A stretch of 37,291 nt of DNA from Methylocystis sp. (lineage in GTDB: Bacteria > Pseudomonadota > Alphaproteobacteria > Rhizobiales > Beijerinckiaceae): contig JAKFXD010000133.1 of assembly GCA_021731565.1 (NCBI GenBank), positions 1 to 37,291 on the forward strand, read 5' to 3'. The notes beneath the pieces are model-generated. The model was not told where the DNA came from, made no database searches, and was given only the letters and a program-made list of their open reading frames with translations. This document shows positions 501-9,025 of the stretch, piece after piece (position 1 is the first letter of the stretch; each line of letters starts with the position of its first letter). Both the position numbers and the translations under genes were made by a program.

Positions 501-1121
501 ATGGAAATGACGAAATGGCGTAGCCTCGCAGCCGCAGTTGTCGGCGCGTTTTTCTCGCTGGCGTGGGCGGCCCCGCTATCGGCGTCGGAAGGCGGCGCCG
601 GCCCCGAAGCCATGACAATGGGCAATATGTGCATGGTCATGTTCGGCTATGACATGATCCACATCACGGCCTATCAGCCCGGCAAATCGCGTAGCGAATA
701 TTGCGCCGAAATCCCGGCGGCCGGCCCGACGATTCTCGTGTTCGACATCGAAAATCCGTCGTTCCGCGACATACCGCTCGAACTGCGGATCATTCGCGAT
801 CCATTGACGCCGATCACCAAGGACACCGATCTCGAGGCGCTGACCGAAGTCTATCGCCCGGCGACGAAATATACCAAGGGCACCTTCAATCTGGAGCATG
901 ACTTCAAGAACAACGGCCATTACATCGGCCTGGTCACCCTGACGCGACCGGACGGCTCGCAGGAGACGTCGGATTTCAAATTCACGGTCGGCGAGACCTT
1001 GTGGGCGTGGGTGCCGCAGATCGCCGGAACGGTGCTCATCGCCGGCATGGTTTTCGTTTATTGGAAACATACGCATCCAAACTCCAAGAAGAAGAATGCC
1101 GCCGGCGTCGCCGCATCTTGA
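501..1121 (+). CDS. PmoD-like copper-associated membrane-anchored periplasmic protein (copy 1)
   Basis: Signal peptide, Cys/Met-rich segment (MTMGNMCMVMFGYDMIHITAYQ...YC), C-terminal TM helix; homologous to 8024-8635; lies between a pmoB-like end and copCD. ORF opens at 465; start at 501 or 507 looks more natural. Confidence 0.7.
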   Translation: MEMTKWRSLAAAVVGAFFSLAWAAPLSASEGGAGPEAMTMGNMCMVMFGYDMIHITAYQPGKSRSEYCAEIPAAGPTILVFDIENPSFRDIPLELRIIRDPLTPITKDTDLEALTEVYRPATKYTKGTFNLEHDFKNNGHYIGLVTLTRPDGSQETSDFKFTVGETLWAWVPQIAGTVLIAGMVFVYWKHTHPNSKKKNAAGVAAS

Positions 1122-1188
1122 ACGCGGCGCAATGCGTAAACATCTCAAAAAATCGAAAAATGGAGGCTTGCGCCTCCGGGGAGACGAC

Positions 1189-1605
1189 ATGACCAATGCT
1201 GACCAGGCTTCGCCGATGCGCGCACGCCTTCCGGCCGGGCTCAGCCTCGCCGTCTGCGGGGCTTTCGCCATTGTCCTCTCGGTTGCAGGAACAACCTCGG
1301 CCTTTGCGCATTCGTTCCTTGTCGACGCAACGCCTTCGTCCAAGGAGCATGTGGCGTCGCCGCCGAAAACGATCAAGCTGAAGTTCGGCGGCGGTATCGA
1401 GCCGCCTTACTCGAAAATCTCCGTCGAGACTCCCGACGGTAAGGTGCTCGGCGAAGGCAATGCCGGCGTGCCCGGCAAGCCGCGGGAATTGACCGCCAAT
1501 GCGCCAGATCTCGCGCCCGGCAAATATATCGTCCGCTACCGCGTGCTCTCCAGCGACGGTCATATCGTCGAAGGGAACTACGAGTTCACCGTCGACGCGA
1601 AATAG
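1189..1605 (+). CDS. copC: CopC-family copper-binding periplasmic protein
   Basis: Signal peptide ...TTSAFA|HSFLVDATPSSKEHVASPPKTIKLKFGGGIEP...YRVLSSDGHIVEGNYEFTV, a typical CopC domain. ORF opens at 1096; start MTNADQ at 1189. Confidence 0.92.
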   Translation: MTNADQASPMRARLPAGLSLAVCGAFAIVLSVAGTTSAFAHSFLVDATPSSKEHVASPPKTIKLKFGGGIEPPYSKISVETPDGKVLGEGNAGVPGKPRELTANAPDLAPGKYIVRYRVLSSDGHIVEGNYEFTVDAK

Positions 1606-1714
1606 GCGGGTTCGCGCGATGGGCCGGCGCGGGGCGCGGTCCGACGCGCTGCGCGTTCTCGCATCCTAGCGCGACCTGAGGAGCTCTACGTCACAGAATT
1701 CGGGCGAAGGAAAA

Positions 1715-3640
1715 ATGTATCTGTCTCTAGCGGCCATTCGCTTCCTTCTGAGCCTGCCGTCGGCCCTCGCGGTCGGACTTCTGCTCGTGCCGCGTCTCAT
1801 CGGCGAGGACGGCGCGCGCTTCAAGCCGGCCGTGGCGGCGCTGGCGCTGATGCGCGCCCTCTTGGGCTTCGCGCTGCTCTATGTCACCGCGCTCTCGATC
1901 TTTCCCGCCGATCATCCGATTGAATTCGGCACGCTGTGGGAATTCGCCGTCACCACCACGGTCGGCAACGCCTGGATTGCGACGCAGCTGATCGCGTTCC
2001 TTTTCGTCTGCCTCACGGCGGCGCGGCTGTTCATTAATTTTGAATTGCTCGATCGGGCGACGCTGTGGGTCGGCGTCGTCCTCGTCGCGGTCGTTTCGGT
2101 GACCGGCCATGCCGTCGATGACGGCCTGCCGCGCTGGACGCAGGCGAGCTTCCTGATTCATACCGCCGCCGGCCTCATCTGGCTTGGCGGACTGCTGGGG
2201 CTCGTGTGGTGGATGTTCACGGCGCGCGGCAAGCCGCCGGAGGTCGCGGCGCGGCTCGCGGAACGCTGGTCCCTGATCGCCAAAGTCGCCATGGCGGTCG
2301 TCGCCGTCTCCGGATTTGCGATCGCCTGGGAGAATGTCGGCAGCATTCCCAACATTCTGGCGACGCCCTACGGCCGGATGTTGACGCTGAAGCTCTTATG
2401 TCTGTGCGGCGTGCTGCTCGCGGCGCTGGCGCTTGCGCGCTACATCACGCGACGGCCCGACGGCGAATTCAATGTCGCCTGGTACGGCAAGGTCGGGGCG
2501 GGCGAGTCGGTCTTCGCGCTCGCGTTGCTTGCGATTGCGGGCTACATCGCGGTCATCACGCCGGCGGCGCATGAGACCAGTCTATATTGGCCGCTGCCGT
2601 TTCGGCTGTCCTATATCGCGACCTGGGGACAAAACCCGGCGATGTTCAGCCCGATCTGGTGGTGGGCGATCGCGGCCGTCGTTCTTGCGATCGTCGCCGC
2701 GCTGATCTGGTGGACGCCGAGAACGCGCGAATATCGTCTTTATGCAACGCCGGCGATCTCCGCCGCGGCGTTGATTTCGCTCGCCGTGTCCTTTGCGACG
2801 GAGGCCTATACCGACACTTACGACGATCCGACGCAAGACTATACGGCGGAGTCGGTCACCCGCGGCCTCGGGCATTTCAAGGAAAACTGCATCGCCTGCC
2901 ATGGCGATCAGGGTGAAGGCAATGGGCCGCTCGCCAAGGACCTCAGGAATGTGCAAGGGCTCCCCGTGCAGCCCGCCGACCTGACGGCCCCCCACGTCGG
3001 CACGCATACGATCGGCGACATTTTCCACTGGCTGACGCACGGCGGACAAAGCGGCGTCATGCCTGGATTTCGCGATCAGCTCGACGTCGACGATCGGTGG
3101 GACGTGATCAATTTCCTGCTGATGATGTCCTATTCGAACCGGGCGCGCTTCATGAGCGCTCAGCCGATGATTCAATGGCTGATCGCGCCCGACTTCGCGC
3201 TCATCGATCCGCAGGAGGAGGTGACCTCGCTCTACCGGCTGCGCGGCGTGCCGACGCTGATCTCCTTCGCGCGCTGCGGGTCGCCGAAAGGCGATCCGAA
3301 GGCGCGCGACGAAAGCGTGAAAATCGCACATGATTCCGCGAAAGCCGCCGGCGCGAACCATGTGACGATCTATGACGCAGCCTGTCCGCAGGAGGCGAAG
3401 GGGCGGGAGCCCGTTCATCCCAAAGCGGTCGAGACGGCCTATTCGGTGATCAATCGCTACCCTAACGAGCTGCCCTCGGAGGAGATTGAAGAGGCGCATT
3501 TTCTCGTCGACCGTTCCGGCTATATTCGGACGCGTTTCCGCGCTTTCGCGCCTGACGACGGAAACGCCCAGAAACTGGCTGGCCTCGTCGCCGAATTCGC
3601 CCGTGAACCCTTCGTCGAGATCAGTTTGCACTCGCATTAG
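1715..3640 (+). CDS. copD: CopD-domain membrane protein fused to cytochrome c (CxxCH) and a C-terminal thioredoxin/SCO-like domain
   Basis: Multi-TM N-terminus, then ENCIACHGDQGEGNGPLA...GGQSGVMPGF (class I cyt c), then a soluble region ending EEAHFLVDRSGYIRTRFRAF. Confidence 0.85.
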   Translation: MYLSLAAIRFLLSLPSALAVGLLLVPRLIGEDGARFKPAVAALALMRALLGFALLYVTALSIFPADHPIEFGTLWEFAVTTTVGNAWIATQLIAFLFVCLTAARLFINFELLDRATLWVGVVLVAVVSVTGHAVDDGLPRWTQASFLIHTAAGLIWLGGLLGLVWWMFTARGKPPEVAARLAERWSLIAKVAMAVVAVSGFAIAWENVGSIPNILATPYGRMLTLKLLCLCGVLLAALALARYITRRPDGEFNVAWYGKVGAGESVFALALLAIAGYIAVITPAAHETSLYWPLPFRLSYIATWGQNPAMFSPIWWWAIAAVVLAIVAALIWWTPRTREYRLYATPAISAAALISLAVSFATEAYTDTYDDPTQDYTAESVTRGLGHFKENCIACHGDQGEGNGPLAKDLRNVQGLPVQPADLTAPHVGTHTIGDIFHWLTHGGQSGVMPGFRDQLDVDDRWDVINFLLMMSYSNRARFMSAQPMIQWLIAPDFALIDPQEEVTSLYRLRGVPTLISFARCGSPKGDPKARDESVKIAHDSAKAAGANHVTIYDAACPQEAKGREPVHPKAVETAYSVINRYPNELPSEEIEEAHFLVDRSGYIRTRFRAFAPDDGNAQKLAGLVAEFAREPFVEISLHSH

Positions 3641-3794
3641 ATCATCCCGCCTTTGGGCGGTTTTCGCGGCGCGCTCCGGCGCGCCACATTGTCGCAAGCG
3701 CGACGTTCGCGCCACGGTATCTAAGGAATGCGTCGTTCGTCATGATGCAGTGAGGCCGGCGGAGAACAGTCCGGCGCAGAAAGGGAGAAGCCAG

Positions 3795-4382
3795 ATGCTA
3801 AAGCGGCGTGATTTTTTGCTTACCGGAGGAACTCTCTTGACGGGGACGGCGCTTGGACTCTTCGCCTCGCGCGGTCCGGCCTCGGCCCATGAATATGACG
3901 TCGGCAATCTGAAGGTGGAGCATCCCTGGCTGCGCGCGCCGGTCGACGGCGACAACAAGGCCCAGTTCTACGCGATCCTCCACAACAGCGGCGCGACCCC
4001 GGATAAGCTCATCGCGGTCAAATCTGAAAAATTCGGCAGGGCGGAAGTTCACGGCGACGCCAAGAAGCTCGACCTCGTCACGCCGATCGTTGTGCCGCCC
4101 AAGTCGACGCTCACGCTCGCGCCCGGCGGGGCCTATGTCGCGCTCCTCGACATCAAGAAACATCTCGAAGTGGGCTGGGGACTGGAGATGACGCTGGTCT
4201 TCGAAAAGGCCGGCGAAGTGGAAATCGACGCCGCGATCGACGCGCCGGATGCGGCGCATGCCCATGACGCCGAAGCCATGGAGCGCTGGCAGAAGGCGCA
4301 TGGCCAGGATTCGGCCGGTCCCAAGGAGGGCGCCGCCCACCAGGATCACGAGCATCACGAGCATCACATGGATAAGAAGTGA
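3795..4382 (+). CDS. PCuAC-domain copper chaperone with Tat-type signal and His-rich C-terminus
   Basis: MLKRRDFLLTGG (Tat-like), HPWLRAP...NSGATPDKLIAVKSE...AEVHGD...L.PGGAYVALLDIKKHLEVG, tail HQDHEHHEHHMDKK. ORF opens at 3486; start at 3795. Confidence 0.88.
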   Translation: MLKRRDFLLTGGTLLTGTALGLFASRGPASAHEYDVGNLKVEHPWLRAPVDGDNKAQFYAILHNSGATPDKLIAVKSEKFGRAEVHGDAKKLDLVTPIVVPPKSTLTLAPGGAYVALLDIKKHLEVGWGLEMTLVFEKAGEVEIDAAIDAPDAAHAHDAEAMERWQKAHGQDSAGPKEGAAHQDHEHHEHHMDKK

Positions 4383-7253: not shown

Positions 7254-7850
7254 CTACGTCGCCGCGTCGAACATTTCCTCGACATGCTCCCAATTGACCA
7301 GATGATCGAGGAAAGCCTTGAGATAGTCGGCGCGGCGATTGCGATAGTCGATGTAATAGGAATGCTCCCAGACGTCGGCGACGAGGATCGGCGCGGCGCC
7401 ATGGATCAGCGGATTCTCGGCGTTCGGCGTCTTGCGAACAGCGAGCTTTCCAGCCTTCGCCTCCAGCCACACCCAGCCGGAGCCGAATTGGCCCAGGCCT
7501 TCCTTCTGAAACTCTTCGCGGAATTTGTCGACCGAGCCGAAGGAATCGATGATCGCCTTCTCGACCTTGCCGGGAATGGCGCCGCCGCCGTTCGGCTTCA
7601 TCCACTTCCAATAGTGGGCATGGTTGTAATGCTGGGCGACGTTATTGAAGATCGGCGTATTGCGATTATAGGCGGTGACGATCACTTCCTCGATCGGTTT
7701 GCCGTCATATTCCGTGCCTTTGATGAGATTATTGGCGTTCGTGACATAGGTCGCGTGATGCTTGTCGTGGTGATACTCAAAGGACTCGCGCGAAAGATAA
7801 GGCTGCAGAGCGTCATAGGGATAGGGCAGATCTTCCAGTGTGAAGGACAT
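7254..7850 (-). CDS. sodB: Superoxide dismutase (Fe/Mn family)
   Basis: MSFTLEDLPYPYDALQPYLSRESFEYHHDKHHATYV...QHYNHAHYWKWM...DVWEHSYYIDYRNRRADY. Confidence 0.96.
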   Translation of the reverse strand: MSFTLEDLPYPYDALQPYLSRESFEYHHDKHHATYVTNANNLIKGTEYDGKPIEEVIVTAYNRNTPIFNNVAQHYNHAHYWKWMKPNGGGAIPGKVEKAIIDSFGSVDKFREEFQKEGLGQFGSGWVWLEAKAGKLAVRKTPNAENPLIHGAAPILVADVWEHSYYIDYRNRRADYLKAFLDHLVNWEHVEEMFDAAT

Positions 7851-7967
7851 AATTCTCTCCCGAATAAGTTCGCCGAGCGTCAGCTGCACGCGTTAACTAG
7901 CCCCCCGCGCGACATGCGGCAATATCGCGCGATCGCGAACGGCGCCGCTATGTTCGCTTTTTGGCGA

Positions 7968-8003
7968 CAAAAAAGCACGGCTCGGTGACGACCGAGCCGT
8001 GCT
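7968..8003 (-). terminator. Rho-independent terminator for the downstream end of the PmoD-like paralog (minus strand)
   Basis: aaaaaagcacggctcgg-tgacga-ccgagccgtgct; perfect stem with T-run on the minus strand. Confidence 0.85.
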
Positions 8004-8023: not shown

Positions 8024-8635
8024 TTAGGCGATGGCGTCGCCCGTCGAGGGCTTTTTCCTTGCGCTGGCGCGCAGCGCCCACCACAGCAGTCCGACGAGCG
8101 AGACGAAGCCGACTGCATAGAGAATGTATTCGATCAATCCGTGGAAGGTATAGAGTCCCACTGAGAACGGAAAGCGCGAAACCCATTCATTGCCGAGACC
8201 GTCGCGCGCCGTGACGATTCCGACATAATGGCCGGAATCCTTGAAGTCGTGTTCGAAGGTCATCGTGCCGTTGCGATAGACCTTCGGCTCGATATAGGCG
8301 ACGGTGATCGCGTCGAGGTTGGCTTTTTCCTTTTCTTCGCCGACGTCTTTAACGACGCGGATGCCGATCGCCATGTCGCGCAGTTTTGGCGAAACGGCGG
8401 TGAGCGCGATCACGGTCGGTCCGGTATTGGCGATATCCTCGCAAAACTCCAGATCTTCGCCGATGCGCTGATAGCCGATGAAGTGCATGACGTGCGGACC
8501 GATCCGCAGCACGCAATCATCCTGCTCGAGCGCCACGCCGCCATGCGCGAGGACGGCTGTCGGCGCGGCGATAAAGGCCGCGACCGCAATCACTGCGCCG
8601 GCGAACAGGCCGCGCATCCCAGTTACACTCGCCAT
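8024..8635 (-). CDS. PmoD-like membrane-anchored periplasmic protein (copy 2)
   Basis: Aligns to 501-1121: DDCVLRIGPHVMHFIGYQRIGEDLEFC / NMCMVMFGYDMIHITAYQPGKSRSEYC and FEHDFKDSGHYVGIVT / LEHDFKNNGHYIGLVT; signal peptide and C-terminal TM. Confidence 0.7.
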   Translation of the reverse strand: MASVTGMRGLFAGAVIAVAAFIAAPTAVLAHGGVALEQDDCVLRIGPHVMHFIGYQRIGEDLEFCEDIANTGPTVIALTAVSPKLRDMAIGIRVVKDVGEEKEKANLDAITVAYIEPKVYRNGTMTFEHDFKDSGHYVGIVTARDGLGNEWVSRFPFSVGLYTFHGLIEYILYAVGFVSLVGLLWWALRASARKKPSTGDAIA

Positions 8636-9025
8636 TTACAGTCTCCCCATGATCGCCGACGCCGCGACCGCCGAAGGCTCCCGCCGCATACGCGTCGCCG
8701 CTGTAGTGATGACGTTTGTATTGGACGAATGGATTGCGACGCGACATCTTGACGCATCTTAATGATACTTATAACATATTGAAAAAAATTGAAAAAAATT
8801 CTCACAGCTCCGACCGTTGAAAATCATAAATACCATATATTGATGTAAAATGTGATTGAAGCGATATATATATGGTTTTGCTCGCGGGACAGACCGCAGA
8901 ATGGTTTCTAACATAACAGTATTGTACTGAGTCTAATACTTTGAACTTTCGGCATCCGCCGTCGATTGTGCCGACGGGCGCGGCTTGTGGTAGGTTTCGC
9001 GCCAACCAACATTCAAAGGATAACG

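Follow-up and report, generated by a model that had tools for sequence, protein, structure and literature searches.

How do copper and electrons reach the methane and ammonia monooxygenases? This is a long-standing open question. To our knowledge PmoD, a copper-binding protein of methane oxidisers, is one of the few accessory factors linked to both, and only for the CuA-type PmoD1 is a site known. The stretch of DNA analyzed here (37,291 nucleotides of a Methylocystis contig, hereafter "the window") carries two PmoD-like genes, which raises the question of what the second one, termed copy 2 or PmoD2, is for. Both lie at the places given in the earlier note (Table 1), copy 1 on the forward and copy 2 on the reverse strand, the latter encoding 203 residues.

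The window starts with the last residues of pmoB (2-64), whose C-terminal peptide matches that of genome G010; copy 1 therefore serves as pmoD in an extended pmo operon. Within this operon, the gene at 1715-3640 (+) encodes a protein that joins CopD to a cytochrome c domain (Pfam CopD and Cytochrom_C) and a further C-terminal stretch; the same long protein also occurs at related Methylocystis and Methylosinus loci.

Table 1. Positions of the features of the pmoD2 locus in the window.
Feature	Position	Strand	Basis or remark
PmoD1 (copy 1), CuA-type Cx7MxHxnC, directly downstream of pmoB	501..1121	+	6CPD match, E 4e-61
copC, copD-cytochrome c fusion, PCuAC (rest of extended pmo operon)	1096..4382	+	Pfam
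Fe/Mn superoxide dismutase (sod), conserved pmoD2 neighbour	7254..7889	-	Pfam, synteny
Intrinsic terminator between pmoD2 and sod	7974..8003	-	13-bp stem, 4-nt loop, T-run
PmoD2 (copy 2), with signal peptide, cupredoxin domain (periplasmic) and TM helix at the C-terminus	8024..8635	-	ORF, 6CPD match, Foldseek, orthologues
C-terminal transmembrane helix (predicted), residues 164-193	8057..8146	-	AlphaFold2 secondary structure
Cys65, invariant second Cys	8441..8443	-	Orthologue conservation
Met50-His51 (Cx8MH); invariant His, Leu or Val instead of Met in 6/36 orthologues	8483..8488	-	
Cys41, invariant first Cys	8513..8515	-	Equivalent of 6CPD Cys41
Asp39 (Cys-2), co-occurring across the family with a Cys+10 His	8519..8521	-	43/43 vs 3/27
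His31 codon, predicted first mature residue	8543..8545	-	Invariant in 36/36 orthologues
Signal peptide (predicted), residues 1-30, ends AVLA	8546..8635	-	Sequence
AATACAAA, -10-like element	8715..8722	-	Fixed 33-nt spacing from start of box; 14 orthologue promoters aligned
Inverted-repeat box of TGCGTC-N5-GACGCA type, here TGCGTCAAGATGTCGCG	8740..8756	-	Conserved in orthologue promoters
AT-rich conserved element TCAATATATGG	8833..8843	-	Orthologue promoter alignment

Copy 2 is a genuine PmoD-family gene under purifying selection (dN/dS = 0.07-0.26). Using phmmer, the crystallised PmoD 6CPD matched it with an E-value of 1.1e-17 across 120 residues, the match to copy 1 being far stronger (4e-61). 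Modelled with AlphaFold2, the predicted mature protein (pLDDT 81.5) had 6CPD as its top structural match (Foldseek E-value 1.8e-12, TM-score 0.83 on the target). Copy 2 combines the features of the PmoD/AmoD family, namely homology to 6CPD, the cupredoxin fold, two invariant cysteines, a predicted transmembrane helix at the C-terminus, as the earlier note had proposed, and a genome with a CuMMO operon (the pmoB end described above; PmoB is also present in related genomes); the signal peptide was judged by sequence only. The motif HDFKxxGHYxGxVT described earlier is indeed present in both copies (HDFKNNGHYIGLVT and HDFKDSGHYVGIVT), and no Pfam or NCBIfam model matches either of them.

Orthologues of copy 2 were detected in 33 of the 37 genomes of the genus, in G034 only as two overlapping fragments (C83:1250-1820; 71% and 67% identical, the split being due either to a frameshift or to faulty assembly), and in none of 24 sampled genomes of the same order. 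Identities range from 64 to 97% in most Methylocystis genomes. Across the genus the gene order pmoD1-copC-copD-PCuAC-aminotransferase-SRPBCC-[SOD, pmoD2 reversed]-hypothetical-CBS-XthA is kept, and three Methylosinus genomes share it without the SRPBCC and CBS genes (PmoD2 43-47% identical). In both genera pmoD2 sits 7-9 kb from pmoD1, with the exceptions of G162, which has PmoD1 and lacks pmoD2 at the conserved place, and G024, in which pmoD2 is unlinked. In nearly all relatives pmoD2 is followed by the superoxide dismutase gene on the same strand; in the window a terminator separates the two. Copy 2 belongs to a syntenic group of orthologues that is conserved in both Methylocystis and Methylosinus. 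The conserved residues include those on which the earlier note relied, Cys41, His51 and Cys65, all invariant in 36/36 orthologues together with His31 and His129. A recent duplication of copy 1 was ruled out by the low identity between the copies (about 31%) and their separate clades; the nearest paralogues of copy 2 in the same genome lie elsewhere (48% and 42% identity).

A phylogeny of PmoD paralogues, proposed as a check in the earlier note, was built without the motif columns and placed the copy 2 group in one clade of its own (100/100), apart from PmoD1, AmoD and AmoE. AU tests rejected none of the groupings copy 2 plus AmoD, PmoD1 plus AmoE, and copy 1 plus copy 2; the first reached p = 0.46, although the tree shows separate clades. 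The tree suggests that the CuA motif may have originated independently in PmoD1 and AmoE, a joint clade of which was not rejected (p = 0.33). The published motif classes of Fisher et al. were also considered as clades and discarded, since Met, Leu, Val and Ile interchange within orthologue groups; the Cx8MH class is itself not a clade, with 6/36 copy 2 orthologues carrying Leu or Val. A separate PmoD-like group in Methylocystis and Methylosinus (L220, L213, L218, L225, L230) has the conserved motif AAGWHYYDP(E/D)CPI(x)LG but lacks a Cys+10 His. In Methylosinus sp. C49 (G136, C1:3704144 and 3704909), a PmoD without a ligand motif beyond the Cys adjoins a further pmoB copy.

Whether copy 2 forms the known CuA site can be assessed from its motif. 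Mutagenesis showed that two chains each contribute Cys41, Met49 and His51 as CuA ligands, M49A abolished CuA in the protein of 6CPD, and CuA formation was confined to PmoDs of the Cx7MxHxnC type (Fisher 2018, PMC6189053). Copy 1 (CMVMFGYDMIH) belongs to the Cx7MxH class. Copy 2 (CVLRIGPHVMH) has Val at Cys+8 and Met at Cys+9, so that the CuA combination of Cys41, Met at Cys+8 and His at Cys+10 is incomplete; the Met-His pair at Cys+9/+10 and the second Cys place it in the Cx8MHxnC class. The shared pattern C-x(n)-MxH-x-x-YQ reported previously does not hold, as copy 1 reads CMVMFGYDMIHITAYQ (Cx7MxH) and copy 2 CVLRIGPHVMHFIGYQ (Cx8MH). With its ligand Met displaced, copy 2 is predicted by motif not to form CuA. 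Residue 50 is Met in 30, Val in four and Leu in two of the 36 orthologues, which speaks against Met50 as an essential ligand.

The earlier note had correctly read NMCMVM (copy 1) and DDCVLR (copy 2) around the first Cys and suggested that copy 2 may have a different metal site. That idea is well supported; its reason, the loss of flanking Met ligands, is not, given the CuA ligands named above. The copper bound by Met42/Met44 between monomers in the crystal is a contact that the authors consider a likely artefact (PMC6189053), and a modelling paper on AMO from 2020 reports the flanking Met residues to be missing from AmoD and AmoE (PMC7584546). AmoE has the complete CuA ligand motif without them, and together with the literature this rules out the flanking Met residues as CuA ligands. 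Among 135 PmoD homologues, MCMVM occurs in 15/15 operon PmoDs of alpha-methanotrophs and in none of the other His-bearing classes or remaining listed sequences; we read it as a specialty of PmoD1 rather than a loss in copy 2. The decisive difference is that the ligand Met has shifted from x7 to x8; to this come a His at the N-terminus and an Asp, both of which had been overlooked.

A relative of copy 2 has probably been purified already. MettrDRAFT_0370, a Cx9H protein of M. trichosporium OB3b, binds copper and forms no CuA (Fisher 2018, PMC6189053), and its locus tag lies 11 tags from that of the operon pmoD (MettrDRAFT_0381). Genome G201 represents this strain (plasmid contig 100% identical to NZ_CP023738), and its gene at the pmoD2 position (L083, C1:264070), about 8.5 kb from the operon pmoD, is the only Cx9H gene among the seven OB3b PmoDs found here (Fisher et al. 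count eight; PMC6189053). Motif and position thus make MettrDRAFT_0370 the probable OB3b orthologue of copy 2. The syntenic gene shares the gene order and 45% identity with copy 2, and differs by a Val in place of Met50 and an insertion midway through the domain. Among the PmoDs reported as tested in the main text of PMC6189053, no Cx8MH protein appears.

The N-terminus of copy 2 shows a further pattern. AVLA is directly followed by His31, so that the signal peptide is presumably cleaved just before this residue, which would make it a candidate copper ligand at the mature N-terminus. A His at precisely Cys-10, counted from the first Cys, is found in 88/135 PmoD/AmoD proteins (the next commonest offset occurs in 14), in 87/88 cases directly after an AxA-type signal-peptidase site. 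It is present in 28/28 AmoD/AmoE-type proteins of AOB and absent in 15/15 operon PmoD1 of alpha-methanotrophs. Proteins with the Cys-10 His carry Asp at Cys-2 in 43/43 cases with His at Cys+10 and in 3/27 without, a covariation that rests on three to four independent changes on the tree and is to be read as a pattern, not as a statistically independent test. This pattern appears to be new, and a literature search pairing the histidine brace with PmoD returned no paper from the collection searched. All published PmoD constructs carry an extra Ser-Met at the N-terminus and the crystallised 6CPD chain starts five residues before Cys41; published experiments would therefore have been blind to a native N-terminal His. 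In the model of mature copy 2, residues 1-5 have a pLDDT below 50, so that it speaks neither for nor against His31 as a ligand, and the site is put forward as a hypothesis.

Brace or brace-like sites are known from the CuB site of pMMO, CopC and PmoF1, among others (PMC10952591). Tentatively, and with clearly less than even confidence, we consider that most PmoD/AmoD proteins including copy 2 may carry a second copper site on a free N-terminal His (H-x7-D-x-C-x9-H), similar in concept to CopC or the histidine brace, and that operon PmoD1 of alpha-methanotrophs may have lost it and become a CuA branch with MCMVM. If so, in vitro work with Ser-Met constructs would have missed the site, and AmoE, so far modelled only as CuA, would have it as well. 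Two further proteins of the region have a His as predicted first mature residue, PCuAC (3780-4382, +; MLKRRDFLL..ASA, then HEYDV, with a Tat-like signal) and CopC (1096-1605, +; AFA, then HSFLV), so that an N-terminal His is possible in three (PmoD2, PCuAC, CopC). In G182, a genome from another genus of the family, the gene immediately after pmoB (L064, G182:C3:98739-99278) encodes a copy 2-like Cx9H PmoD with an N-terminal His. None of the four PmoDs found in G182 is Cx7MxH; a pmo operon may be able to do without a PmoD of the CuA type.

Concerning its expression, copy 2 forms a transcription unit of its own, with a terminator and conserved promoter elements. Both the terminator and the AT-rich upstream region (33-34% GC vs 55-69% around) had been recognized previously and are borne out here. 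In aligned orthologue promoters, TCAATATRTRG, TGCGTC-N5-GACGCA and the -10-like element occur at near-fixed spacing. The core GCGNC-N5-GNCGC was found at -90 to -200 in 14/24 orthologue promoters vs 0.17 expected, a ratio to be read with the relatedness of the promoters in mind, and the extended box (at most two mismatches) fits well only at the pmoD2 promoter in six genomes. A degenerate GCG inverted repeat has been proposed for RegA/PrrA (PMC4263372); the resemblance of the box to it is a lead only, and control by RegA/PrrA is not claimed. No RNA families were found around the gene.

Taken together, we consider it somewhat better than even that PmoD2 is a PmoD/AmoD protein of an old, conserved, non-CuA kind, exported, anchored, probably binding one copper ion, and handling or delivering copper for pMMO. 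The protein would be exported and held by its single C-terminal helix, with the cupredoxin domain facing the periplasm or the lumen of the intracytoplasmic membranes, a compartment in which the soluble domains of PmoB are located as well. Most likely a single copper ion would be bound near the start of the mature protein; we infer His31 (amine and imidazole), His51 and Cys41 as ligands, with Asp39 possibly helping and Met50 dispensable, and a role in handling or delivering copper rather than in electron relay via a homodimeric CuA. The neighbours of PmoD2 are copper-handling proteins (Pfam). Counting against this role is the separate transcription unit, so that co-expression with pMMO is only presumed.

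Three other explanations were weighed against this one. That copy 2 forms an ordinary homodimeric CuA with Met50 replacing Met49 is quite improbable: the spacing of Cys41 and His51 (C+10) does equal that of the CuA protein, but Met50 is not conserved, M49A kills CuA and the tested PmoDs other than Cx7MxH made none (PMC6189053). We would be equally surprised to find it a heterodimer partner of PmoD1, with a CuA-like site built from Cys41-Met49-His51 of one chain and Cys41-Met50-His51 of the other. The known CuA site is built between two PmoD chains (PMC6189053), both copies have the Cys and His ligands, and the linkage of the genes at 7-9 kb is conserved; however, PmoD1 makes CuA alone, copy 2 is transcribed separately, Met50 is Leu or Val in 6/36 orthologues, and the linked pair is broken in G162, where PmoD1 is present but copy 2 is missing from its usual position, and in G024.

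It is unlikely, though less so, that copy 2 serves pMMO as a structural or assembly factor or acts as a thiol redox protein, with Cys41 and Cys65 forming a disulfide and copper binding being incidental. The discoverers proposed structural roles for PmoD, 6CPD has a disulfide between the two Cys, and a PmoD with only the CxnC motif also binds copper in vitro (all PMC6189053). Selection on copy 2, however, holds His31, His51 and Asp39 in addition to the Cys pair.

By kind copy 2 is an ordinary PmoD, yet its orthologue group is worth naming PmoD2, being non-CuA by motif, syntenic, conserved and probably a mononuclear copper-handling protein. A conserved PmoD2 is now set apart from PmoD1 and linked to an already purified protein. 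The native N-terminal His is a simple variable that could explain why other PmoD classes looked featureless.

Among known systems, 6CPD (Met49242_1452, Methylocystis sp. Rockwell) has its gene in the same genomic neighbourhood as copy 2. The two share the fold, the two invariant Cys, the His at Cys+10, the signal peptide and the C-terminal helix; copy 2 differs by its Cx8MH instead of Cx7MxH motif, the lack of MCMVM, its predicted N-terminal His and Asp39, and an identity of only about 31%. AmoD of AOB (Cx8MHxnC) resembles it in HGG[VL]-x-L-x-x-D-x-C-x-L-x-[IV]-GP-x-x-MHF and the predicted mature N-terminal His, whereas it falls into a separate tree clade (joint clade AU p 0.46) and is encoded inside the amo operon. 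Histidine-brace proteins (CopC, PmoF1, the CuB site of PmoB, LPMO) likewise are exported beta-sandwiches with an N-terminal His (predicted in copy 2) and a further conserved His and Asp, but they belong to a different family, and the copper site of copy 2 is a putative one.
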